Assembly: GCA_944470555.2 (NCBI GenBank) | Contig: OX104130.1 | Span: 78,249,160 to 78,313,159 of the forward strand | Origin: Heterobilharzia americana | Lineage: Eukaryota; Platyhelminthes; Trematoda; Strigeidida; Schistosomatidae | Direction of reading: 5' to 3' | Length of the DNA: 64,000 nucleotides | Part shown: positions 728-64,000 of the stretch, piece by piece | How the letters are laid out: every line of letters starts with the position of its first letter | Numbering within the stretch: position 1 is the first letter of the stretch | Notes under the pieces: model-generated | Told to the model about the DNA's origin: nothing | Databases searched by the model: none | Seen by the model: the letters and a program-made list of their open reading frames with translations, nothing else | Program-made: the position numbers and the translations under genes

Positions 728-1024
728 GAAGGATTTCCGGAAAATCCAAAGAAGTAATATGCAATCGCTCCAATGTCAGACTAAATAAGATAAAACTGAA
801 GTCTCTGTTGGATTTAAATGTCTTTTCACATTCGAACGCGTTAATTAAATTCATACAAAAGCACAATTTGAAAAGTTATACCAGCAAATTCACGACTTGA
901 AGCCTATAGATGAGAATAGAGGAAGCTAGTTTAAATCTAAGCTGATAGATATTGCCAATCAGTTTTGCATATCTGCATACCAACAGTCAAAGATTCTGAC
1001 GAAGCAGCATAGGTTGATGCTGAA

Positions 1025-2775: not shown

Positions 2776-3511
2776 GTCTTTCCTTTTCTTTGGATTGCAC
2801 CACGTTTTCATGAATTGCTTACTGAATATTAATCACTTCACGATTTTCAAGTTATTCATGCCATTTAGTTACCCACTAGGCCTTAACCAGTTCCTTTTTT
2901 ACACTGATTTTCGTTTGTTGTCTCCTCACTCCACAGCAGCAGAATTTTCCACTTCATTGGAAATAAATAGTCGTAGATATTGACTAGGATATATAACTGT
3001 TAATCTTGTGTTTTCTTGACTCCCTCACTACCTTGTTTTTAGTGCTTACTTTCAAGTCTACATTTATTTCTGCGTGTGCATAGTATGTTTTATTACTATT
3101 TTTCCGATTACTCGTTTTCACTGTATACTGTTTGCAGGTGATGAATTACCACAAATAAGGTGAGCTCACTTTATTCTGCAAATATCTTTGTTGTTGCATT
3201 GATATTTTCCTCCTTGGAATGTCACAGATTCTTTGCTATATTTTAACTATTTAGATAAGTTTCTCATGAATAATTGCGTTTTTTTGATTGTTGAGGATAT
3301 GTTTTTGTTTTTCTGTATTCTTATTGGTTACTTTTGTGGCAATGAATCTTACAAATTTAATTGGTTAATTTAGGGATGTTTATTAGACATTATATAAAGA
3401 TGTTTTCGATAGATGTTTATCATATATAGAATTATTTGGTTAACTTGTTTAATGTAGTAATCACTAAAGATGATAATTGTTAAAATTAAATGTAAACAAA
3501 TCTAATATCAA
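2773..3511. other. 5' flank of the GPCR gene
   Basis: AT-rich sequence between the PLE and the receptor start codon. No retroelement similarity is visible. It should hold the promoter and any 5' untranslated exons of the receptor; no clear TATA or Inr can be assigned by eye. A possible small non-coding exon lies at 3138-3159. Confidence 0.5.
3138..3159 (+). other. Possible 22-base 5' UTR micro-exon
   Basis: A pyrimidine-containing acceptor ending TTTGCAG at 3137 and a donor GTGAGC at 3160-3165 bracket 22 bases. A further acceptor-like TTTAG precedes the coding exon near 3373. Very small exons are common in schistosomes, but there is no transcript evidence here. Confidence 0.2.
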
Positions 3512-4894
3512 ATGGATGAATGTATCCCATCTTTGGTGACATTTTTGAATGAAACCGATGAACATTTAACTCTTGAGAATATAGATAACACTGAAAATAA
3601 TGGACTTGTAAAATTTGGCAATGAATTTAGTAAAATTCATGGTCCTCTTAGTTTAGCTGTATGTACATTTGGTATACCAGCTAATCTAGTAAATATTATT
3701 GTATTAACACGAAAAGAATTAGCACAAACAGCAACAAATCACTTGTTATTATGGTTAGCTGTTGCTGATCTCCTACTTATGGCTATGTATGCACCAAGTT
3801 TACATCATTTTTATATAATTCATCCACATCCAATGAAAAATCCAATATATACACCATCAAAATTATGGATTATATATCAAGAAATTGTTGTCAGTTGTGC
3901 TTTAATGCTTCATTCATTAGCTTTATGGTTAGCTGTTTTATTAGCTTTATTCCGTTATATTCATGTAGGATTCCCTGTATCTGGTTCATTACACACAACA
4001 CGTAGACGAGCATTCATTTCAGCTACATTAACAACTCTATGTTGTATACTTGTCGCTATACCAAATATTCTTGTGAATCATACAAAATCATGTCAAGGTC
4101 CTGTATTAAATTATAAATCTATGACTAGTGAAAATATACACAAACGTATACAAATTTACTATTATATTTCATCAGATCCAGATAATGAAGAAAATAATTA
4201 TTCAGAGTATTATAATTCATCGAATCAGATAGTATTTTTATCTTCTTTCTCCAGAATAACCACTAATGGTTGGAGATCAAAACAACTTCATAACTTTAAT
4301 GTTTGGTTACAAGCTGTTGTTACAAAGATTGCACCATCATTTCTATTAACAATTTTAACAATCTTATTAATTGGTGAATTACAAAAAGCAATTCGACGTC
4401 GGAAAACATTATTTCATAATCGTGAAAAATCTCAAATTGTAACAAAAAATAATAAACGTTACTCATTTACATTTCTTCAGTCTTCATCAACAACATCAAA
4501 CTTATCTAATGATGAAGGGAAAAAGTTAAGTCGAGAAAATCGTACAACTGGTCTACTTTTAACAATTGTCTTATTTTTTTTAGCTATTGAACTACCTCAA
4601 GGTATTCTAGTTACATGTATACATTTGATAGAGAATTTTGAAGAAAATGTTTATCAGCATTTAGGTGATTTACTCGATTTTTTAACACTGTTAAATGAAT
4701 CAATAAGTTTTGTTATTTATACAACAATGTCACAACAATTTCGTAAAACATTTTGTATGATATTTTGTCCATTATTTTTAGACAAGTCAAATAATACTCA
4801 TGATCTTGAGATAACACGTTTACGTCAGCAACGTTTAAGTCAAAACATATCAGTACCTAAAAACAGTCAAAGTGTAAAACTCTTACGTATTTAA
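3512..4894 (+). CDS. Class A GPCR, myosuppressin/DMSR-type (FMRFamide-like) neuropeptide receptor
   Basis: A 460-residue seven-helix receptor in a single exon, expected at the plasma membrane of nerve or muscle cells and coupling to G proteins. Approximate helices: TM1 44-66 (GIPANLVNIIVL), TM2 76-98 (LAVADLL), TM3 119-149, TM4 166-188, TM5 264-288 (WLQAVVTKIAP), TM6 343-371 (RTTGLLL and ELPQGIL), TM7 384-405 (LGDLLDFLTLLNESISFVIY). The DRY box is replaced by FRY (147-149) and NPxxY by an N-x-x-x-F-x-x-Y form. Both changes, with the TM5 and TM6 signatures, are typical of the invertebrate myosuppressin/DMSR/sex-peptide receptor group. N-glycosylation sequons occur at N13, N189 and N235. The second extracellular loop is long (about 190-263). 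An in-frame TAA at 3503-3505 supports this ATG. Its ligand cannot be named from sequence. Codons are strongly A/T-ending. The frame stays open after the stop (see next entry). Confidence 0.9.
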   Translation: MDECIPSLVTFLNETDEHLTLENIDNTENNGLVKFGNEFSKIHGPLSLAVCTFGIPANLVNIIVLTRKELAQTATNHLLLWLAVADLLLMAMYAPSLHHFYIIHPHPMKNPIYTPSKLWIIYQEIVVSCALMLHSLALWLAVLLALFRYIHVGFPVSGSLHTTRRRAFISATLTTLCCILVAIPNILVNHTKSCQGPVLNYKSMTSENIHKRIQIYYYISSDPDNEENNYSEYYNSSNQIVFLSSFSRITTNGWRSKQLHNFNVWLQAVVTKIAPSFLLTILTILLIGELQKAIRRRKTLFHNREKSQIVTKNNKRYSFTFLQSSSTTSNLSNDEGKKLSRENRTTGLLLTIVLFFLAIELPQGILVTCIHLIENFEENVYQHLGDLLDFLTLLNESISFVIYTTMSQQFRKTFCMIFCPLFLDKSNNTHDLEITRLRQQRLSQNISVPKNSQSVKLLRI

Positions 4895-6778: not shown

Positions 6779-7027
6779 TACTTAATTATATATACCGTCA
6801 AACAATGGAAAACAGCATACATACATACATACATATATAGCGTAGAACGACACATTTAGGTGTGACAACATAGAAGTGAATAGTTTTTTACAGGTCAAAT
6901 GGTAATGGAGAGGATAGAATGGATATTCAAAATTGAATGTGTTGGGGATAGTTTAATTGAGTTTGGATAATAGTGGATTTTAGGTAAGAAAATAATTATA
7001 ATATGAATGATAGATCATGGCTAGCAG

Positions 7028-7082
7028 TGGAATTCAGGATGCTCATTTCATCCTCTTTGGGACCTGTCAGCCGGATGTACCT
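7028..7082 (-). ncRNA. Degenerate hammerhead (left palindrome arm)
   Basis: On the minus strand the helix I strand, helix II (GGTCC...GGAT) and GAAA are recognisable, but CUGANGA reads CUGACAG, so the invariant G8 and A9 are lost. It is probably inactive. Confidence 0.6.
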
Positions 7083-7135
7083 ACTTCCCAGTGAGTGATA
7101 TTGTTCCCATCGGGTCCATTACTAACTGGGAAGCA

Positions 7136-9475: not shown

Positions 9476-10338
9476 AAATTTAAAACATATTCAGGTTACC
9501 ACTCCTAATTTGTATGCTTTTCTGGTGTTCTATTGTGGATAAAATATGATAGACAGTTGAAAATACGTAAACACCTTCCAATTCTTGATGTTCATTACAA
9601 ATATGAATGCTGTCAACATTAACAAACTGTTAACATCATATATTGTACCTATATGAGCAAATGATCTGCTCATGTTATAATTATGTTGACAGAAGGAATT
9701 TGAAAATCTACTTCTGTGAAGTAGTATCTCATTGCAAGTGGAATTTTATGGATCAAAATCTTCATAATGATAATGCAGAAATCTAATTTCGAAAGTTTAT
9801 TGTCCATTGGTAATGTAAAATCATTTTTATCTGCCACTGACTTACTTGGTGATATTATTTTATGGATCGATTGAAGAGTTTTCTACTGACTCCTCAACAA
9901 CATATATATGACTAATATTTAGTAAGTAAATGTATGTTGAGTTCAATTCATCATTGTGCATCATTTTCTGTCGTGTCCTTCAAACTGCTTACAACATTTT
10001 TTTTATTTATGATGCTGTGTGGTCAGGTAATTCAGCTGTATACACAGATAAATCAGATTGTCTGAAATATATACGGAAAATAATCACCAGACTTTGTATT
10101 CTGTTGCCAGTGGTTGAAAGGGTAGAATTATGCGATTCATCGTCTGAGTGAACTGAGTATATGAAACTGATCAGGTATTATCAAGACCAGTTTTGTGCAA
10201 GGTCAGTGGTTGGACTGAACTGACAGAATCTCGGAAATCAAATAATCACTACCAGACAAAGTTATAACATCAAGGAGATCTTTCATTGAGCTGTCAAAAC
10301 TTTAGATTAGTTTGTCTAGCGTATGTGATGACAATAAC
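9476..10338. other. No supported gene
   Basis: AT-rich. A 73-codon ORF at 9930-10151 has no recognisable domain and is not annotated as a gene. Confidence 0.5.
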
Positions 10339-13300
10339 CTCGCCTGGTTAACTAGTTTACTAGTTACTAGCCGGTCCTAAGCCCGGGTAAAGAGGGAAGC
10401 TTGGGCATAGGGCTAGCAAGCCTACCCCGTAAAACAAATCTAACCGCTAAACAAACTTCAAAGCACAAACAAAATATAAAAAATGAAAACAAACTTATTC
10501 CCCGCTGGAATCGGAGAGGCGAAATGACGCCAGTTGGTGAAAGCCTGCCTTCGGGAAGCCAATTGGCCGGGCCGAGGTGTCTTCTCTCGATGAAAGCGAA
10601 AGTAAACATGGGGACATGGAATGTCCGCACCATGTTTGAACCCAGTAAGGCAGCCCAGATTGCAAAGGAGATGAGAAGGTATAACATCGAAGTGCTTGGG
10701 ATTTGCGAAAGCAGATGGAATGGGAGTGGTCTCTCCAAACTGTCAACTGGAGAATCAATAATCTACTCCGATATTATCACCCAGACGACAACCACGAGCA
10801 CACTGAGTTATGGAGTGGCTATCATGATGTCCTCAAGAGCATCGAAGGCTCTCATGCAGTGGGAACCAATCTCCTACACGATCAGGATCATGACAGCAAG
10901 ATTCAACTCAAAAGGAAGGAAAGTCACAATCATACAATGTTATGCACCTACAAATAATGCAGAGCAAGGGAAAAAGGAGGAATTCTATAGACAACTTCAA
11001 TCAACACTGGACAAGACGTCAGTTGGCGATATCAAAATTCTAATGGGCGACATGAATGCCAAACTGGGAGGGGACAACACGGGAAGAGAACTAACCATGG
11101 GTCGAGAGGCGCTAGGTGAAATGAATGAGAATGGAGAATTGTTTGCAGAATTCTGTGCATTCAACGATTTCGTGATTGGAAGCAGTGTGTTCAGGCACAA
11201 GGATATCCACAAAGCGACATGGATTTCACCAGATGGACACACTAAAAATCAAATCGGCTTTATCTCAATCTCGAGAAAGTGGAGACGCAGTCTACTTAAC
11301 ACATGGTCAAGAAGAGGAGCAGATGTAGGTTCAGACCACTCACTATCTAGTGCAAGGAACCTTCCAAATCAAGTTAAAAGCTTTCAAGGAAGCTGGTGAT
11401 AGACCTCAATTCAAGTACAACACTCGGAAACTGAAGGATGAAACTACAAAGGAGATCTTCAAGGCAGCCATCAAGACAAAATGGGAGACATCGAGCAACA
11501 TCCCTGAAGAAACCTGTGTGGAAGAACACTGGAAGTCTTTGAAAGCTATGTGGAAAGAAACCTGCACAACAGTATTAGGAAGGAAGAAGAAAGAAGACAA
11601 GGAATGGATCTCGACGGATACCTGGAAGCTGATACAAGGGAGAGGAGGATGGTGAAGCAGAAGATAAACCAGTGCAAGGATGCTCAACGACAAGAGGAAC
11701 TGAGCACAATGTATAAAACACTGGATAAAGAAGTGAAGAAGAGTGCACGCAAAGACAAAAGACACTTCTACGACACACTGGCAAGTGAAGCAGAACAGGC
11801 TGCAAGTAAGAGAGACCTGACAATATTGTATCAAATAACGAGGTTGCTATCTGGCAAGGAAGAGATCAACACAGATGAAACCAATAAAAGATGATGACGG
11901 AAATTTAATTACAGAAGAAGAGAAACAGAGGAAACGATGGGCCGACCACTTCAAGAAGCTCTTGAATCGACCACCACCAGCGCCTGCACTTCGTCCAGGG
12001 ATACCATCTACAGACGCTGAACTACAAGTGAACATAAATCCTCCAACGAAAATGGAAGTCCTGAACGCCATAAAGCTACTGAAATGCGGGAAAGCAGCAG
12101 GACCAGATGGAATACCGCCAGAAGCACTGAAAACAGATGCAGAGACAACAGCGGACATGCTCACACACCACTATTGCAGAAGGTGTGGAAGGAAGAGAAG
12201 GTACCTGCCATAGATTGGAAGAAGGGTTACCTTGTCAAACTGCCGAAGAAAGGAGACCTGAGTGCTTGCAAGAACTGGCGCGGAATCACTCTCCTATCCA
12301 CCCCAGCAAGTAAAATATTAAGCCGCATCATCCTGGAGAGGCTTAAAGACGCACTGGATTCAAAACTGCGACCGGAACAGGCAGGCTTCAGGAAGTACAA
12401 ATCATGTGCTGACCAAATTGCAACGCTTCGTATCATCATAGAACAGAGCGTAGAATGGCAATCAGCTCTATACCTCAACTTCATCGAATTTGAGAAGGCC
12501 TTTGACAGCGTCGACCGAGAAGTAATTTGGAAACTGCTTCAATACTACGGAGTACCGCAAACCTTTATCCGCCTCATTCAACAACTATATGAAGATGCCA
12601 CATGCCAAGTAATCCACAATGGGAAGCTCAGTGATACTTTTGAAGTGAAGACAGGAGTGAAACAAGGTTGCCTACTATCCCCCATGATATTCCTGATTGT
12701 GTTGTGGTGGACTGGATCATGCAGCAAACAGTAGGCAGCGAGAAGAGGGGGATACACTGGACGACGGAAAAGAACCTAGAAGACTTGGATTTCGCCGATG
12801 ACTTATGCCTAATGTCACATAAACTTGAAGATCTGCAGGCAAAAACTAACAAGTTGATAGAAGAGGCAGCTAAGACGGGACTTCAGGTGAACATAGAGAA
12901 GACAGAAGTGATGAAGATACCGCACCACCACCATCAACAACAACAACAAACTCCAATCACCGTCAACGGGAGAAACTTGAAGGAAGTAACCTCCTTCACT
13001 TATCTAGGAAGCACTGTTTCAACTACAGGCGGGACGGACGAGGACGTCAAAGTCAGAATCGGAAAAGCAAGACAGGCGTTCATTAGCCTGAAACCAGTGT
13101 GGAGATCTTCTGCACTCAGCATGCGGAACAAGATACGGATTTTCAACACCAACGTCAAGTCAGTGCTCCTGTATGGTTCAGAGACTTGGCGCGTCACGAA
13201 AGGCATTTCCAATAAACTACAGACATTCATCAACAACTGCTTACGCTCGCTGCTGAAGATCAGATGGCCAGAAAAAATAAGCAACAAGGAACTCTGGGAA

Positions 13301-16490: not shown

Positions 16491-17579
16491 ACATGTTTAA
16501 GAATAACTCTGGAACATGTTAGTATCTTGTTTTTAAGTTACTGGCGTCTAAAAACGTGAACTATTTGATTCCAAAAAGGCAGCTAAACGGAAACATGTTC
16601 AAAACAAAAACTGAGGGATCCTTAGCTTGTACATTTATCGAATCAACTGGCTGTGTTATCGAAAGATTCATACGTACCGAGAAATCATTATGTACTATCA
16701 TGTTAGTCCTCAATTAGTTTTCACTAATTTAATTTATGATCTGGATGATAATAAAGTTAACTGTTCCCATGTAAAGCATGTTGTCCTCATGAACTGCAAT
16801 ATTTTCATATTCTATAAACAGATTGTTTCGCTTTGAAGTTTCTCTTGAGAATCATGATAAGGTATTTTAACTTTTTTCAAGACATACATTCCATTACTTG
16901 TAAGATCAAGTTGAATTTACCCTTTTGATCAAATGAGTTTATCTTCCTAGGAGTCTTGTTACAACTCAAGATGAATGTGGTTCAAATTCTTATATTTGTA
17001 CGTCTTCTGATAATGCATATTATTCTTAGTACTAATTAGGGCTTACAAGAGTAGACTTACGTTTAGTAACATATTTAATTAATGACACTTCCAGTATAAA
17101 TTGCTTTCTATTATTGTGTCATGATTAACACAAATTGCTCGCTTATTTTCTATCTAGTATGATATATGATGGCTATTATTTTGACATCACTGCTAATGAA
17201 TTAGATCCATTATGATGTCATACACATAGGCTTCCTTCATTTTACCTTCCACATCGTTATTTTAAATTGTGTTGTTCAGTAGAAAAAATGTTCAAATCAG
17301 AGTGATGACGCAAAATCTTAATGAATTCGCTATCTTATTTTGAATATGTCATGTAATATTTGAATAAGTATTTATTTTCTGCCACTGCAGTTAGGTCTAT
17401 TCGGTTATTCTCACTGTATTGTACTTTGACGAAATTATTGTATTTCCCATCGAAGTAAAAATTATACTATTTGTTGTAGTCAGTTAGTAAGCTCATTGAA
17501 AAAGTGAATTCAATCTTGATGCTTTTGTGGGGATTAATTGATTTCAGATTCATATTCATCATGTACTGATATCAGTTAG
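16491..17579. other. No supported gene
   Basis: AT-rich. A 69-codon ORF (16627-16836) has no recognisable domain. Confidence 0.5.
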
Positions 17580-17800
17580 AAAACCATTAGAATCCTGTGA
17601 GCCCTGGACAGCTGTTTTGTTTCAGTGTGCGACTTCTCAGTGGCTCAAGCCCATGATCCTGCCAAGGATCGGACCTAGGACCTTAGGATTCCGTCGCCTA
17701 GGAGGCTCCTTCGTACGAAGCAGATATTCAGTGCCCCAGGAGGTAATGCTCCTGTAACTAATTTCAGTCCATGGTGAACACCGAGTTGAAATCAGTAAAT
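17580..17800 (-). mobile_element. SINE2 copy, degenerate
   Basis: The minus strand shows a B-box-like 'GGTCCGATCCTTGGCAGG', then a hammerhead relic with 'CAGCTGTCCAGGGCTC', but CUGAGGA and GACGAAA are both altered. The tail motif 'TTTCAGTCCATGGTGAACACC' lies at the high-coordinate side in plus orientation, so the copy is rearranged. Confidence 0.55.
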
Positions 17801-17889
17801 TCCCACAAAACCAAAAAGTAAACTGATCCAATGAGAAGTCGTTACCAGTGGGGCAAACCTGGTGGAGATGAGCAAAAATACTTAATGAT

Positions 17890-18135
17890 GACGTTCTGTG
17901 CTGGTCACGCTATGTCGTGAGCTGACACAAGTTGAAAATATGAACTTAGTGGCTCAATGGTTATGGGCTGGCCACGGAACCTGCAGGCCCTGAGTTGTTT
18001 CCCTGGCAGGGCAAGGTCGTGGTTGAGCGCAGACGATGAGTCTCACAACAGGACGATACAGCTATCTCGTGCTGCCAGATTCCCGCTGTCCCTCCAACTA
18101 ATCTCTGTCCATGATGAATACCAACTCAAAATACT
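17890..18135 (+). mobile_element. SINE2 copy, degenerate hammerhead
   Basis: A-box 'TGGCTCAATGGTTATGGGC', a damaged B-box region, and a hammerhead relic near 18023-18075. Helix II (GUCUCAC...) is partly kept but GAAA reads GATA. The tail 'CTGTCCATGATGAATACCAA' is typical of the family. Inactive. Confidence 0.65.
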
Positions 18136-19204: not shown

Positions 19205-19395
19205 TCGCATAAGTGGCTGTCTTCGCTCCGTGACTTAGTGGATAACGCGCTGGCGTTTGAAGCAATCGTTCTCGAGTCCCAATCCCGATGGGAACAACAT
19301 CACTCACTGTAAAGTAGGTACATCTAGCTGACTAATCCCAAGTAGGAAGAAACGCGCATCCTGGATTCCACTGCTAGCCACTATCCATCATTAAC
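19205..19395 (+). mobile_element. Sm-alpha-like SINE with mutated hammerhead
   Basis: Clear A box 'TGACTTAGTGGATAACGCGC' and B-box-like 'GTTCTCGAGTCCC', then a hammerhead at 19316-19375. CUGANGA reads CUGACUA, so the invariant G8 is lost and the ribozyme should be inactive, although helix I (ATCTAG/CTGGAT), GAAA and the cleavage site remain. The end 'CACTGCTAGCCAC' matches other Sm-alpha copies. Confidence 0.8.
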
Positions 19396-21690: not shown

Positions 21691-22274
21691 TAGTCGAAAA
21701 TAGTCGCATTCATTGAAGCTCTGAAAAGCAGCTAATCATGCAGAATAGAATGAAATAGTTATCTCATGCCTTTTCCAGTGAAGTAATCATGTAGTGATGT
21801 CATGATATCTATGGTGCAAATAATATTGATATAACCAGAAGTGTCAATGGCATTCACATCACTTCAGCTAACCTAACTGTAAACTACTCTTATAATCAGA
21901 AATGAATTTAAGATATCCTGTTTATTCGGAGGTTTTGATTTGGACATCTGATTTTCAAATAAACAATGTTTGGAGGCTATTGTATTTCTTTTGAAAAGAG
22001 ATTGACAAACACTCTTCAAGATATCTTCAACGGTCTTCTGCATGATGTTAATAAGCATTTTTACTCTTCCTTTCTCAATGCTGGTTAAAGTTTGAATATA
22101 CTCCAAATGGTTTGAAGGATGAAGTGTGCCAAATAATAAAGATTTAGTTAAATAACTTCTGAATATAGTAATGCTCCCCAAGGTAATTACTATTCAAATT
22201 TTTCTGAAGAACTGATTCCACGTTAGACTGTTTGCTTGATTTAGCATACAGTAATTAAACATTGATAATTTGGT
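21691..22274. other. Unassigned; minus-strand open frame 21873-22181
   Basis: A minus-strand open frame of about 100 codons starts from TTG, not ATG. Its composition is moderately protein-like ('SIEKGRVKMLINIMQKTVED'). No family is recognised and no clear splice signals or neighbouring exons are seen. It could be an exon of an unseen gene or chance. Confidence 0.2.
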
Positions 22275-22590
22275 TTGTTGTAGCTAGCAGAGGAATCCAG
22301 GATGCGCGTTTCGTCCTACTTGGGACTCGTCAGCTGGGTGCACCTGCATCCCAGTGAATGAGTTTGTTCCCACTGGGACTTGAATCTCGTACACATCACT
22401 TCAAACGCCAAGGCGTTATCTACTATACCACAAAGGAACGTTGGCCACTTTTTGTACAAAAGGGTGGTAGTTATTACTATTTATTGGCACACTTCTAATT
22501 CTTCGTTGTTTTCTTGGATTGAATTGTTTGACCTCTATTGGTATATGGGCTTCGATGCGTATGCCTCGATATTGCCTGAAACTTAATTAA
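22275..22590 (-). mobile_element. Sm-alpha-like SINE, tail-head-hammerhead order
   Basis: In minus orientation a tail block ('CAATATCGAGGCATACGC', 'CCATATACCAATAGAGG') comes first at about 22590-22480. A tRNA-like head follows (A box 'TAGTAGATAACGCCTTGGCG', B-box-like 'GAGATTCAAGTCCC'), and then the hammerhead. This is the order expected of a unit running from one cleavage site to the next, that is, a piece of a tandem array. Confidence 0.8.
22291..22345 (-). ncRNA. Sm-alpha hammerhead ribozyme, intact core
   Basis: Minus strand: helix I CCAG/CTGG with further pairs, CUGACGA, helix II GUCC-CAAGUA-GGAC, GAAA, minimal helix III ACGC/GCAU, and cleavage triplet AUC between 22301 and 22300. All catalytic positions (C3 to A9, G12 to A14, C17) are conserved. 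The very short helix III implies efficient cleavage mainly as a dimer, as known for schistosome and retrozyme hammerheads. This is the best copy of the family here. Confidence 0.9.
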
Positions 22591-24429
22591 TTTGATCCAA
22601 CAAAACAACGGAGAATAGCAAGTATGCCAAAAAATAGTAATAATTAAAGATTGTTTACTGGATCTGATGATCAGCGGGAAGCCCTGCTCAAAATGTCATC
22701 CAGTAAATAATACTGCACCACTGTGAGCCATATAAAATAAATAATCGAACATGGAATGTTGCTCTATAGCATTGCCAAACTCTTACCAGTACATTGCTGA
22801 AAAATGTCATATTCACATTGTAGGGCTGCTAAACATTAATTTCAAAGGAGTTATCTTTAAGGATGGATATTACTCAGAAGACAAGTGAGACCCAGGGAGC
22901 ACTCGCTAGGTGTTTTATCCTCTTTTGAAATTTCCAACAACATATTTTTATGAAGTCATTCACAGTTTAACTCAAGACTATTACATCTCATGGTGGATTT
23001 TCCACTACTTAATGAATGAGATGGAGTCCGTTGGCTAACGCTTATCGACTTTTGTAAATTGACACTGAGGTTAGGTGAATAAATATTCACTGCTCAGTTC
23101 AACCATGCATGGGTTGATAGAAGTAAGCTGCCCAAAATTTTCAAAACAAGCTGGAACAGTTGCGAAGTACTACACTACTTGCTGATATTAATCCTTTACT
23201 TAAACTCATTTAAAAATGACCAAATAAGAAGCACAACCTTTTCAATGTCCTATGAACATTATTTTTTTTTTATTACATCAAAATCACGCGGATAACTTCA
23301 CATTCCTAACTTGTATATCTATTTGGAAGGTATGCTTGACAGATATTAGTTATTTACTAAGCTGTACATTCGTGAATATATGTTTCAGTAGGTAGAATCT
23401 TTCAGAATAGTTTCCTGTCAGGCTTATCCGGTATTACACAATCGCTATTCTATTTCCATAGCCTCTCGTTCAGTTTCCTACTTTGCCATACATTCATCCT
23501 GTTTTACGTAATTATATTTAATTTCATAATCCCCTGTCTATTTTTCCCACTTTAAACACAAATGAGTATTAATTAGCTTCCTTTCGTTATTCAATATATT
23601 TTGCCCCCTGACCGGAAAAAAATTCTGGAACATCCTACTCACTGTAACATATATTGATGAATGTACAGCTGAGTAAATGACTTCATCGAAAAGAAAAATT
23701 TTTCTTCGCTGAAACCATGTCCTGTCTTTTCCTAAGATATTAGTTATTTGGTTGTGAACGTAATATTATTAGCCATTGAGTCATTTAAAAACCAGTGAAC
23801 ATTAACAACTTGGGTTTAGCAATTAGGATGTACTTATATCTTTACTTAACGAATCCAAGACAGTTGAGCTTTAGAAGGAGAATGTAACCATTTGACAGAT
23901 GGTTTTACCGATGATCCTTTCTTTTTAGCTTGAGTCATTTCAAGGTACTAAGTAGATGTCACCCCATATCGTCAATGAACGTCCTTTACATGTTTTGTAT
24001 ATACTATTTAAATGCCTACTAATCCAGTCCACATAGCTTAATGACCTTAAAATATAACTCAAATAATCCTTATAATGATTCAGGTGTCAATGTAATTCCC
24101 ACACGATAACACTTGCACTTTCAGGACATTTCAGGCATTATAACACAATTTACTTTTCAGATTGTTTTAGAACTAATCAGAAAGGGGACAAAATTATGAG
24201 CACTGAAAAACAATTGGTTTCCACAAGATTACACATGACCCAAATCAAATTTGATCTTTTCATAGATTAGACATGATAGCTGACAGTGATGATAGACTGA
24301 AATAACCTTAAGGCGATCGTATCACCCGTATACAGTATATTTTAACATATCTTATCAACAGTTATGCATCACATAACGTTTTCAGGGTAATGGATTTATT
24401 CAATTTCCTAGAAAGTCAGAGTAATGCTG
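22591..24429. other. No supported gene; short repeat at 22670-22755
   Basis: AT-rich. At 22670-22755 a block 'CTGCTCAAAATGTCATCCAG' plus 'TAAATAATACTGCACCACTG' recurs with about 15-20 percent divergence at 36430-36515. Nothing else is recognised. Confidence 0.5.
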
Positions 24430-24730
24430 ATTTTAACGATGAGAAAGCCTGAAGGTCGTAAGACAGTTACTCAACGATGACATTGGATGACGGTTGCGCT
24501 ATATCGTGAGCTAACAGAAGTTGGAAATATGGACCATTGGATTCTGATTTAGTAACTCAACAGTAAAGTGCTGGCTACGGAACCTGAAGGTCGCGGGTTT
24601 GATCCCTGGCAGGGTCGTGGGTGTGCACTGCTGAGGAGTCTCATACTAGTGGGACGAAACAGCTGTCCAGTGCTCCCAGGTTTCCTCTGTTCCTCCAATT
24701 GATGTCAGTCGACTATGAAAAAATTGGAAT
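24430..24730 (+). mobile_element. SINE2 with intact hammerhead
   Basis: In order: an upstream block ('GCGCTATATCGTGAGCTAAC'), a tRNA-like head, the B box 'GGGTTTGATCCCTGGC' (about 24596), the hammerhead (24621-24680), and the tail 'CTCCAATTGATGTCAGTCGA'. The head is somewhat damaged. The order matches Sm-alpha, but the ribozyme helices are unrelated in sequence. Confidence 0.8.
24621..24680 (+). ncRNA. SINE2 hammerhead ribozyme, intact
   Basis: Helix I GCACTG/CAGTGC (6 bp). Core CUGAGGA at 24631-24637. Helix II GUCUCA-UACUAG-UGGGAC (6 pairs, one U-G). GAAA at 24656-24659. Helix III ACAG/CUGU with no loop. Cleavage triplet GUC between 24667 and 24668. Every invariant position of the hammerhead consensus is present. 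This is a structure-based call from the known family consensus, not a measured activity. Confidence 0.85.
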
Positions 24731-25619: not shown

Positions 25620-25885
25620 GCGAAACTGTGATCTATCGCCTGAGCAAAGTCGGGTCGTGATGCAGATACTCGCCGATATCATTGAGTGGTGGTTACGCTA
25701 TATCATGAAGTGACAGAAGAGGAAAAATGGGAATCATTACATCCTGACTAAGTGGTTAGTTTAAACACCTGTCTCATTGGTCAATTCACACTAATGAGAA
25801 GCAGGACAGTGGGATGAAATAGATATCAAGTGTTCACAAGTTTCCAGTGGTTCTTTAAACGGTGTTTATCCATGTTGAATGCCAC
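25620..25885 (+). mobile_element. SINE2 copy, degenerate
   Basis: The upstream block ('TTACGCTATATCATGAAGTG') and the A-box relic ('TGACTAAGTGGTTAG') are recognisable. The hammerhead is reduced to 'GACAGTGGGATGAAATAG', and the tail 'GTTTATCCATGTTGAATGCC' follows. Confidence 0.6.
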
Positions 25886-29064: not shown

Positions 29065-29310
29065 AAGCAATAATCGTCAGCTAACAGAAGTTGGAAATAT
29101 GGACCAGTGGATTCTGGCCCAGTGGCTCATAGGTAACACGCTAGTCACGGAACCTGAAGGTCGCAGGTTCGATCCCTGGTGGGCTAGTGGGTGTGCACTG
29201 CTGAGGAGTCTCATACTAGTGGGACGAAACAGCTGTCCAGTACTCCCAGGTTTCCTTTGTTCCTCTAACTGATATCAGTCTACGATGAATAACAACTTGA
29301 AATAATTTTA
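29065..29310 (+). mobile_element. SINE2 with intact hammerhead
   Basis: The clearest SINE2 copy: upstream block 'GTCAGCTAACAGAAGTTGG', A box 'TGGCTCATAGGTAACACGC', B box 'CAGGTTCGATCCCTGGTG' (about 29164), hammerhead, and the tail ending 'TCTACGATGAATAACAAC'. Pol III transcription is likely given good A and B boxes. Confidence 0.85.
29191..29250 (+). ncRNA. SINE2 hammerhead ribozyme, intact core
   Basis: Helix I GCACTG/CAGTAC has one C-A mismatch. CUGAGGA is at 29201-29207, helix II GUCUCA-UACUAG-UGGGAC, GAAA, helix III ACAG/CUGU, and cleavage follows GUC between 29237 and 29238. Confidence 0.82.
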
Positions 29311-37259: not shown

Positions 37260-37660
37260 TAGTATTTTTAAACAGATATTTCGATGACTTAAAGTTGGTA
37301 TTCGTCATGAACTGACATAAAATGAAAACAATTAAAAACCTGGGAGCACTGGACACATTTTGCACTCTAATGCTAGACTTTTCAGGACTGCACACCACTG
37401 AATGCATCGCTGTTTTTTAGTGACTCGCTTCAAGATGAGGTTTTGTGAAGTTCCATTGAAAAGTCATGAACATTGTGGAGAATTAAGTCGGACATGAGGA
37501 CAAACATTTAAGGAGAGCACTGGGTGAAGGTCGCGCTAAATGAAGATTTTATGGAAGTAGTTTAGTGTCAACCATTGCCTTCCGAATCTTTGACCCAATG
37601 GTGATGTGCTGATTACGAAATCTGAAGATTCTTGGTTCAATCTACGATAGAGTTGTGTAT

Positions 37661-37720
37661 GTGTGTGCATTGCTGGGGAGTCCAATACCAGGACGAAATA
37701 CTGTGCGTTGCTTCCAAGTT
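37661..37720 (+). ncRNA. SINE2 hammerhead, one core mutation
   Basis: CUGANGA reads CUGGGGA (A6 lost). Helix II GUCC-AAUACCA-GGAC is perfect and GAAA is kept. Helix I is GCATTG/CGTTGC. Probably inactive. Confidence 0.6.
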
Positions 37721-38702
37721 TCCAATTCTTGGTTATGTGATGTTAGCCCATGATAAATACCAACAATGAATTAACGGAATACCCACAAACCTCCAAACTG
37801 GATTAATAAGCTTCTGCGAACGACAGTCAAAAACTGTAGCTAAAACGAAATTTACATAATATTATTGATAAAACTATTTCAATTTAAGGTTTTGTGGAAA
37901 CTTACTAGTTTCAGGGTTGGTATTCATCATGAATTGACGTGAGCTGGCGAACAACTGGAAATCTGGAAGCACTAGACAGCTGTTTCATCCTAGTATGGGA
38001 ATCCAGTGGTATATATTTCCTACTTCTGCCAGTTCACAATATAGAGCCACCTTCATCCAATGTCATCGTTTATTAACCGTCCTCATGTTCGATTTGATTG
38101 GCACAGCTGGTCACAACTTCTTATTGGAACTTCAGGAATCATCTCTCAAGAAAATATACACCATTGGATTTCGACTCAGCGGCTAAATGGTAACGTGCTG
38201 GCCACTGAACCTGAAGGTTGTGGGTTCGATCTCTGAAGGAGTCATGAGTACTCACGGCTGCAGAATCCCACGCTGGGACGAAGTGGTTGTCCGGTGTTCT
38301 CAGGTTTCCAGTGTTCCTCTAATTGATACCAGTCCATGATTAATAACAACCTGAAAGGAAACAATTTACCCGGTTTTTTAGATCTTTAAAACTGTCATAT
38401 TTACCAATAAATTGCCCGTATGGATTTGAATTCATAGGTTATTGTATATATAGGGGATGAACAAAAGTCTATTTATTCTACTTCAAAGCAGTCCAGCTTT
38501 CCTCATAAATCCTTTCCCCTAATTTTAAAATTAAGTTCCACATTATTTTTCTGTCAATATAATGATCTTTAAAGATAGAGAAACAAGTTAAGGAATGTAA
38601 ATTAGATTTTTTAGGGAGTTGTGAAGATTTGAAGATATTTCAAGTTGTTATTCATCGTAGGCTGACATCAGTTGGAGGAACAAAGTAAACCTGGGAGCAC
38701 TG

Positions 38703-38850
38703 GATTCTGACCCAGTGGCTCTATAGTAACATGCTAGCCACTGAACCTGAGGGTCGCAGGTTCGAGCCCTGGTGGGGTAGTGGGTGTGCACTGCTGAGGA
38801 GTCCCATACTAGTGGGACGATGAACAACAACTTATGAACTAGATTTGTTG
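38703..38850 (+). mobile_element. SINE2 copy with deletion through the ribozyme
   Basis: The head and B box ('GCAGGTTCGAGCCCTGG') are excellent and helix II is a perfect GTCCCATACTAGTGGGAC hairpin. The sequence then jumps from GACGA to 'TGAACAACAACTT' of the tail, removing GAAA, helix III and the cleavage site. Short homology (CGATGA) at the junction suggests a microhomology deletion. Confidence 0.75.
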
Positions 38851-38917
38851 TTCTTTATTGTTTGAGACGTAGTATTCATCATGGACTGACATCAGTTGAG
38901 GAACCATTGTAAATCTG

Positions 38918-38968
38918 GGAGCACTGGACAGCTGTTTCGTCCTAATATGCGACTCCTCAGCAGTCCAT
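38918..38968 (-). ncRNA. SINE2 hammerhead ribozyme, intact core
   Basis: Minus strand: CUGAGGA, helix II GUC...GAC (short, with a CAUAUUA-type loop), GAAA, helix III ACAG/CUGU, and cleavage after GUC between 38927 and 38926. Helix I is CTG/CAG plus outer pairs with one mismatch. Confidence 0.75.
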
Positions 38969-39398
38969 GATGAATACCACTTCTAAATTAAAAATCCCCA
39001 TTCATCTCAAAAGTATATTACTCTATAGTGCTCATTATTGACTTGCTTCCAGATGGAAATCAGCTAGGGATCGAACTCAAGACCTTCAGGTTTCACAGCG
39101 AATGCGTTAACCATTCAGCCACTGAGTCGGTTTCCAGTGGTTCACAATTTCCAACTCATACCAATTCACAACAGATGGATGTCAGGAAGTTCTAATGAAA
39201 AGCCGTGACCTGTGGAGTCAAACAGTCGGAAATGAAGTGGATGCTAACTGAAGACCTTGGGTGACAGTCGTGTTATGTCGTGAATTGACAGGAGTTAGAA
39301 AATGTAAACCACTGGAAACCGACTCAATGGCTGAATGGTTAACGCGTTCGCTGTGAAACTTGAAGGTCTTGAGTTTGACCCCTAGACGGGTCGTGGTT

Positions 39399-39451
39399 AC
39401 GTACTGCTGAGGAGCCCCATATTAAGATGAAACAGCTGTCCAGTGCTCCCA
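39399..39451 (+). ncRNA. SINE2 hammerhead, damaged helix II
   Basis: CUGAGGA, GAAA, helix III and GUC are conserved. Helix I is GTACTG/CAGTGC. Helix II reads GCCCC...AAGAU and barely pairs. Weak or inactive. Confidence 0.6.
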
Positions 39452-39540
39452 GATTTTCAATGGTTCCCCAACTGATGTCAATCCATGATAAATACTACTT
39501 CTAAATTAAAAATCCCCATTCATCTCAAAAATACATTGTT

Positions 39541-44964: not shown

Positions 44965-45200
44965 GAATGACCTTCAGGTTTCATGGTGAACGCGTTAACC
45001 ATTCAGCCACTAGGTCGGTTTCCGCGTGAATGGTTAACGCGTTCTCCGTGAAACCTAATGGTCCTGAGTTCGATCCCTAGCTGGGTCGTGGGTGCGTACT
45101 GCTGAGGAGTCCCATATTAGGACGAAACGGCTGTCCAGTGCTCCCAGATTTTCAATGGTTCCTCAACTGATGCCAGTCTATGATGAATACTACTTCTAAA
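44965..45200 (+). mobile_element. SINE2 pair, head-to-head, with intact hammerhead
   Basis: A minus-strand head fragment (44965-45025, A box 'TGGCTGAATGGTTAACGCG' in reverse) abuts a plus copy that begins inside its own A box ('GTGAATGGTTAACGCGTTC'). The plus copy then has the B box 'GAGTTCGATCCCTAGCTG', the hammerhead and the tail 'TCTATGATGAATACTAC'. Confidence 0.8.
45093..45150 (+). ncRNA. SINE2 hammerhead ribozyme, intact
   Basis: Helix I GUACUG/CAGUGC (one U-G pair). CUGAGGA at 45102-45108. Helix II GUCC-CAUAUUA-GGAC. GAAA, helix III ACGG/CUGU (one G-U). Cleavage after GUC between 45135 and 45136. Compared with 24621-24680 the helix II length and loop differ while pairing is kept, so two subfamilies preserve structure. 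Confidence 0.87.
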
Positions 45201-63500: not shown

Positions 63501-63512
63501 ATAATAATAATA

Positions 63513-64000
63513 GGATGAAACAGCTGTCAGTTCTCCCAGGTTTCCTTTGTTCCTCCAACTGATGTCAGTCTACGGTGAATTATAGTTATCTTAGTGATGT
63601 TAAGAACAACGGGAACAGCATGGTACTGCAAAAATATTTAAACAAATAATGTCAATCAAAACTTAGAAAATCAAAAGTTACGTGATACTAAAGGACGAAA
63701 TGTGTAGATCAAATTCTAAATAAATAAATATATTCTTGTATAGTGCTCATTAGTGACTTGCTTCCAGATGGATATCGCGAAGCTATAATGAGGAGCCGTG
63801 ACCTGTGGGGTCAAACAGTCGGAAGTGAAGTGGATGCTAACTGAAGACCATGGGTGACAGGCGTGTTTTGTCGTGAAGTGACAGGAGCTGGAAATTGTGA
63901 ACCACTGGAAACCGACCCAATAGCTGAATGGTTAATGTGTTCGCCGTGAAACCCGAAGGTCTTGAGTTCGATCCCTAGCTGGGTCGTGGGTGAGTACTGC
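63513..64000 (+). mobile_element. SINE2 unit spanning from one hammerhead to the next
   Basis: Begins inside a hammerhead ('GGATGAAACAGCTGTCAG' after an ATA tract) and passes the tail ('CAACTGATGTCAGTCTACGG'). It then passes an internal region ('GTGACTTGCTTCCAGATGG', 'GTCAAACAGTCGGAAGTG'), the A box ('TAGCTGAATGGTTAATGTG') and the B box ('GAGTTCGATCCCTAGCTGG'). The window ends at 'GTGAGTACTGC', one base into the next CUGAGGA core. This is the post-cleavage to pre-cleavage order of a full unit of roughly 480 bases. Confidence 0.7.

Follow-up and report, generated by a model that had tools for sequence, protein, structure and literature searches.

Insertion scars point to a Penelope-type retrotransposon, and not an ordinary LINE, as the probable mover of a hammerhead-bearing element of Heterobilharzia americana

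We analysed a 64,000-nucleotide stretch of the Heterobilharzia americana genome (C4:78249160-78313159 of a 664.9-Mb, 337-contig assembly; hereafter the window), in which a short repeat at 24430-24730 carries a hammerhead ribozyme motif. An earlier note, made from the letters of the window, had assigned this repeat to a second family of hammerhead-bearing short interspersed nuclear elements (SINEs), SINE2, distinct from Sm-alpha. The covariance model RF00163 (cut-off 34 bits, whole-window E 2e-6) and the fold agree on a complete type I hammerhead, with CUGAGGA, GAAA, ACAG/CUGU, GUC and a 6-bp helix I all present as described, and the predicted cut falls at the position proposed (Table 1). Helix II, given as 6 bp, folds with 7 pairs in this copy, one of them U-G, and in many genome copies it is shorter, with about 4 pairs and the loop CAUACUA. 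Helix I resumes past an internal loop as UGGG/CCCA and is thus not minimal. SINE2 hammerheads at 29195-29243 (+, 41.2 bits), 45096-45141 (+, 42.8) and 38921-38966 (-, 42.1) also score above the cut-off, which bears out the claim of at least four copies with a whole core; another at 39401-39446 (+) stays below it with 25.3 bits. The remaining five above-cut-off hammerheads of the window, at 22295, 9351, 7141, 14602 and 19322, are of the Sm-alpha type. By core, three helices and scores of 39.2-47.8 bits the SINE2 motif is a type I hammerhead, and the separation from Sm-alpha holds: helices I and III are unlike, and the joined monomers of the two families share only the hammerhead stretch (77% identity over 47 bp), with no similarity across the rest of the element.

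Reading the hammerhead across copies, we found a full core by pattern in 26 of 52, and in 22 of the 35 from copies of >85% identity. Among young copies 11 of 382 alignment cells in the core were off consensus compared with 78 of 1,759 in the remainder, and among old copies 24 of 203 compared with 187 of 930, as if the source copies had retained the hammerhead core. Compensatory changes, to which the earlier note had looked for support, gave no signal in helices I, II and III over 49 distinct copies, a result to be expected of dead copies and of little weight; weak covariation is seen distally in helix I (13 broken cells vs 15.9 in shuffles, P=0.026). A pattern search of viral contigs outside this genome returned no hammerhead. 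The single match in other genome contigs, in a planctomycete, lay in a context without such an element and was taken as chance.

With 24430-24730 as query, 7,265 first-look candidates were obtained from the genome; scoring was applied to 40, and 49 matches were listed. Two samples were drawn: the best-scoring loci, 20 fetched stretches holding the 21 top matches after the query itself, and an unbiased sample of 20 evenly spaced 10-kb pieces, 200 kb in total. In forward copies the tail past the hammerhead continues into the 5' body, so the unit is circularly permuted; its joined consensus is a monomer of ~402 bp (50.5% G+C), and 403 bp separate the hammerheads of real tandems at locus L028. SINE2 makes up 1.44% of the unbiased sample in 15 segments, with identities of 69 to 95%, Sm-alpha 0.78%, likewise in 15 segments, and 18 SINE2 segments cover 5.0% of the window. 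Extrapolation from the 20 pieces gives on the order of 50,000 SINE2 segments genome-wide.

The SINE label and the tRNA-like head fared less well. A weak likeness to tRNA is present, reaching at best 23.5 bits (63914-63986) against an RF00005 cut-off of 29, while ARAGORN called a tRNA neither in the window nor in either joined monomer, SINE2 or Sm-alpha, and the consensus-like loci L020 and L028 gave no tRNA match at E<=1. The LINE (long interspersed nuclear element) compared as a possible partner, RTE, gave no sign of partnership: the SINE2 tail is unlike (AAT)n and the layout is unlike that of the RTE control. Since this head stays below the cut-off and the insertion layout of SINE2 is the one known from Penelope-like elements (PLEs), as set out below, the SINE reading is only partly adequate.

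The insertion layout was examined by mapping the monomer on 42 sequence sources, which gave 51 segments of >85% identity. Segment ends lie at monomer 58-76 (site A, 22 segments) or 93-107 (site B, 21 segments), so that 43 of the 51 young segments end at either of two sites 34 bp apart; the other eight end at 53-57 (four), 333 (two), 146 and 387. The 5' starts of the same segments are uniform (Kolmogorov-Smirnov p=0.37). In the unbiased sample all four segments of >85% identity end at the two sites, and among all 15 six do so, six end at 52-54, where older SINE2 copies diverge from the consensus, and three end elsewhere. The hammerhead cut is spanned by 41 of the 43 segments that end at the two sites, and six are longer than one monomer. 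Starts lie within 10 bases of the cut in 4 of 51 segments (2.7 expected) and at the tRNA-like start (~monomer 266) in 2 of 51, with no pile-up at either. Because segments cross the cut and starts do not accumulate there, the scars speak against a cleaved linear monomer as template and for a circular RNA or a multimer left uncleaved.

Adjacent SINE2 segments are paired in one way: 23 neighbours are head-to-head (18 in the best-scoring loci, 2 in the unbiased sample, 3 in the window) and none are tail-to-tail. Composites, in which an inverted truncated copy stands head-to-head with a forward copy, occur in 17 of the 20 best-scoring loci. Both ends were defined in 17 composites (15 best-scoring, 1 unbiased, 1 window). 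Flanks matched over >=9 bp with at most one mismatch in 10 of these, compared with 2.9% of 272 mismatched pairings, an excess equalled by none of 10,000 permutations; in the remaining seven the match was 5-8 bp. The two outer ends lie at opposite sites in 13 of 17 composites (p=0.025), and in 18 of 22 when SINE2 and Sm-alpha are pooled (p=0.002). At 18 junctions the halves overlap by a mean of 3.0 bases vs 0.67 by chance (0 of 20,000 draws), with small insertions at three. Composite flanks are 69% A+T vs 61% in the unbiased sample. The head-to-head pair at 38600-38812 has a junction overlap of 11 bp, and its right part ends within the hammerhead. At L015 869-1429 a composite has both ends at site B, and its flanks make up an inverted repeat, not a direct duplication.

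Likewise, Sm-alpha, whose joined monomer here is 322 bp, carries two-site composites: in 5 of 5 clean ones one outer end lies at 36-43 and the other at 151-160. Six Sm-alpha insertions have flank matches averaging 11.2 vs 6.5 (p=0.001), and the window composite at 22263-22646 has an 11-bp match with one mismatch. Only 13 of 28 Sm-alpha segments of >78% identity end at 36-43 or 151-160. Six Sm-alpha segments (L029, L030, L036, L048 and window 7018-7109 and 19211-19381) end at 20-21, possibly an older end site or an alignment cut-off. As a LINE control we used the final 890 bp of the RTE in the window, which gave 43 matches and no adjacent opposite-strand pair. Of these matches 31 reach the query's final six bases; as the query itself ends just before the (AAT)n tail, the control informs pairing and not end sites.

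We looked for PLEs in the same genome. A GIY-YIG search returned one host gene, read as SLX1-like, and one decayed PLE (L058), whose reverse transcriptase (RT) piece then gave 2,541 candidates, of which 150 were scored. Among these, six lie in frames of 745-809 codons, and there are two close head-to-head pairs (C2:38.22 Mb and C1:127.97 Mb). One PLE (L059/L060) carries direct repeats of 302 bp that are 99.7% identical, and an inverted piece of PLE sequence adjoins it on the upstream side. Queried with the pseudo-long terminal repeat (pLTR) of this element, 36 of 44 matches listed, a listing biased to long matches, end at 315-334 and four at 298-306, giving two sites ~20-25 bp apart. Furthermore, three PLE head-to-head groups have one end at each site (C1:88.23 Mb, 323/303; C3:20.03 Mb, 322/306; C8:5.98 Mb, 302/320). 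SINE2, with its head-to-head inverted part, two end sites and duplications, has the layout of a PLE-mobilised element. A hammerhead-like CUGAUGA...GAAA core with a possible 6-bp helix II, seen by pattern only, lies at L061 ~935-972(-), immediately upstream of a PLE that has a frame of 603 codons. At C4:78313252-78313506(-), 93 bp past the window and beside a SINE2 relative, there is an RT piece of a decayed PLE, with 65.3 bits and two stops.

The copies, the two end sites, the pairing, the duplications, the microhomology and the PLE layout are all present in the genome, and from them we propose the following model. SINE2 would be a non-autonomous, retrozyme-like element whose ~402-nt monomer comprises a 3' tail, a 5' body, a weak tRNA-like head and the hammerhead. 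Transcription may start from the tRNA-like head, and the RNA, circularised after hammerhead cleavage or multimeric, would serve as template. A PLE enzyme would cut both strands of an A+T-rich target, and each cut strand would prime copying at a fixed internal site of the RNA, monomer ~66 or ~100, the two sides usually using different sites. The cDNAs would extend inwards, halt at varying points, anneal through a few bases of microhomology and be filled in, leaving a head-to-head composite flanked by a target-site duplication; Sm-alpha would move likewise. PLE machinery is thus the most likely mover of both hammerhead families, and we consider the model as a whole, Sm-alpha included, to be probable. 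We speculate that the use of opposite sites reflects two enzymes on one RNA. That SINE2 and Sm-alpha are PLE parasites, the two RTs of a PLE complex loading a single RNA, circular or multimeric, at two internal sites so that facing cDNAs, primed by the target strands, are joined by microhomology, seems to us slightly better than an even bet.

Several points weigh against this model. The case rests on genomic DNA, and most loci studied in detail are the best-scoring ones. A clear target-site duplication is missing in 7 of the 17 composites, and the Sm-alpha end sites are ~116 bp apart, vs 30-40 bp. One PLE lineage, and the 1 kb beside a second PLE, yielded no cis-sequence in common with the two families: the PLE examined has no above-chance similarity to SINE2 or Sm-alpha, at the start sites or elsewhere, the 1-kb piece shares no sequence with either, and the PLE examined has no hammerhead by Rfam or by pattern. 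For the lizard PLE of PMC11167929 the start site is reported to show no difference between the two target strands, unlike the opposite-site bias found here, and hammerhead cleavage to be dispensable in vitro; PMC3846280 favours self-priming for inverted copies.

That last proposal, made for rotifer Penelope, gives the first alternative: movement of the PLE type in which self-priming on an antisense template produces the inverted half. It is preferred in print for Penelope and likewise yields head-to-head copies, but it predicts palindromic junctions, whereas the SINE2 halves join at monomer positions that bear no relation to each other, overlapping by a few bases, and each outer end lies at a start site, so we regard it as unlikely. 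A second alternative, that a LINE (for example the window's RTE) mobilises an ordinary tRNA-derived SINE and leaves the inverted halves as by-products of twin-priming, would accommodate the weak tRNA-like head and the target-site duplications, which are compatible with LINE action as well, and PMC8490949 terms such elements possibly SINE-like. The outer end of the inverted half, however, is not placed at random but shares the two sites of the forward end; the (AAT)n tail of RTE is missing from the 20 forward SINE2 copies read; and the 43 RTE matches in the same DNA include no head-to-head pair. This reading is distinctly unlikely.

Satellite spread through recombination or extrachromosomal circles would agree with the real tandem at L028 and with the arrays of ~400-bp monomers described for S. 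mansoni W-elements (PMC8490949), but fixed 3' ends, head-to-head joins and duplications at dispersed sites make it very improbable. A fold-back or MITE-type (miniature inverted-repeat) DNA transposon, its inverted ends being terminal inverted repeats, would explain these ends and the flanking duplications; but the arms can have any length and their 5' starts are uniform, there is a choice of two end sites, some copies exceed one monomer and the duplications vary in length, which renders it hardly credible.

Table 1. SINE2 and Sm-alpha features of the window (positions count from its first letter).
Feature	Position	Strand	Evidence or remarks
SINE2 copy, 5'-truncated, monomer 178 to 55	24444..24722	+	monomer BLAST, 89% identity
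Weak tRNA-like head	24546..24617	+	RF00005 12.8 bits, cut-off 29
Type I hammerhead, predicted cut 24667/24668	24625..24673	+	RF00163 39.2 bits, fold
SINE2 copy, monomer 238 to 70	29073..29307	+	ends near site A; hammerhead 29195-29243
SINE2 copy	45029..45189	+	hammerhead 45096-45141
SINE2 piece	38873..38964	-	minus-strand hammerhead 38921-38966
Older SINE2 relative	39186..39494	+	hammerhead 39401-39446 (25.3 bits)
Head-to-head SINE2 pair	38600..38812		38600-38704 minus, outer end monomer 102; 38694-38812 plus
Older head-to-head SINE2 composite	37289..37764		outer ends monomer 64 and 59
Older head-to-head group, SINE2 pieces	37916..38356		
Old SINE2 pieces, minus then plus	17507..18133		70-73% identity
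Old SINE2 fragment	25653..25755	+	without hammerhead
SINE2 3' piece, monomer 381 to 53	63507..63580	+	
SINE2 relative crossing window end	63743..64000	+	tRNA-like head 63914-63986
Sm-alpha composite	22263..22646		layout as SINE2; outer ends monomer 38 and 160

The hammerhead of the relative at 63743-64000 continues beyond the window (L050) and scores 24.5 bits. Between 38873 and 39548 SINE2 pieces in both orientations are nested, apparently with a minus-strand head within a plus-strand element. Elsewhere the window holds an intact gene for an FMRFamide/myosuppressin-like receptor at 3506-4894(+), 98% identical over 98% to an H. americana protein, with listed Schistosoma and Trichobilharzia matches at 60-74%, which points to H. 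americana or a very near species as the source. Twister-P1-like ribozyme matches at 10331-10404(+) in the window and at L045 6074-6147(-) score 51.8 and 47.1 bits (cut-off 67.2). In both places they lie ~3.2 kb before an RTE 3' end, the likely RTE 5' end; six other sampled 10-kb pieces scanned, five of which contain RTE pieces, gave no such match.

What moves animal hammerhead retroelements is unsettled in reviews: both PMC7229834 and PMC11722881 name LINEs or PLEs, the former calling PLEs 'a strong candidate' on the grounds of shared hammerheads, tandems and co-existence. Insertion scars offer a direct statistical test, made here on two families with a LINE control and repeatable on any genome bearing retrozymes. 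As far as the literature was found, evidence that SINE2 and Sm-alpha insert in the PLE way is new, and if true, the PLE-parasite reading would explain what moves animal retrozymes.

The family itself, which the earlier note had thought possibly undescribed, is doubtful as a novelty. PMC8490949 describes in S. mansoni the W-elements W36.2 (Sm-alpha, 332-335 bp), W25.2 (415-428), W26.2 (399-402) and W27.2 (403). W25.2, W26.2 and W27.2 have 25,162-55,303 full or partial autosomal copies each, and their hammerheads are type I with only weak similarity to Sm-alpha; cleavage in vitro is reported there for three W25.2/W36.2 candidates, and the authors ask whether the hammerhead-bearing W-elements are SINE-like. 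In PMC2770079 the hammerhead SINE-like elements named are Sm-alpha and Sj-alpha, and a literature search by sequence string gave unrelated matches for a 12-mer and none for a longer string. SINE2, at 402-403 bp vs 399-428 bp and with its own non-Sm-alpha hammerhead, is probably the same family as W25.2-W27.2 or kin to it, as judged by length and hammerhead description; length is weak evidence, as the Sm-alpha monomer measures 322 bp here and 332-335 bp in W36.2. W25.2-W27.2 also resemble SINE2 in their tens of thousands of autosomal pieces and occasional arrays; they are described in PMC8490949 as satellite-like, the end sites, composites and PLE layout being observations made here on SINE2.

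Sm-alpha (W36.2) shares with SINE2 the hammerhead plan, tRNA-like head, two end sites, head-to-head composites and duplications, and differs in its non-hammerhead sequence, helices I and III, monomer length and end-site spacing (~116 vs ~34 bp). As a small non-coding repeat with tandems, a type I hammerhead and no protein of its own, SINE2 resembles the metazoan non-LTR retrozymes (PMC7229834), from which it differs in its weak tRNA-like head and its 50.5% G+C (vs <45-50%); the PLE-type scars are likewise an observation made here on SINE2. PLEs, as described in PMC3846280 and PMC11167929, have the same inverted head-to-head part, two end sites, duplications and microhomology. Penelope has direct pLTRs and an inverted one, with a 31-bp tail at one inverted pLTR, 8-10-bp duplications and head-to-head as the commonest arrangement, and a foreign gene between pLTRs was carried in trans (PMC3846280). 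The lizard enzyme cuts and extends both target strands and begins copying at two adjacent internal sites, which correspond to an optional genomic 'tail' of 30-40 bp (PMC11167929), comparable to the 34-bp difference between SINE2 ends. SINE2, unlike PLEs, encodes no protein and has no pLTR match to the PLE examined.
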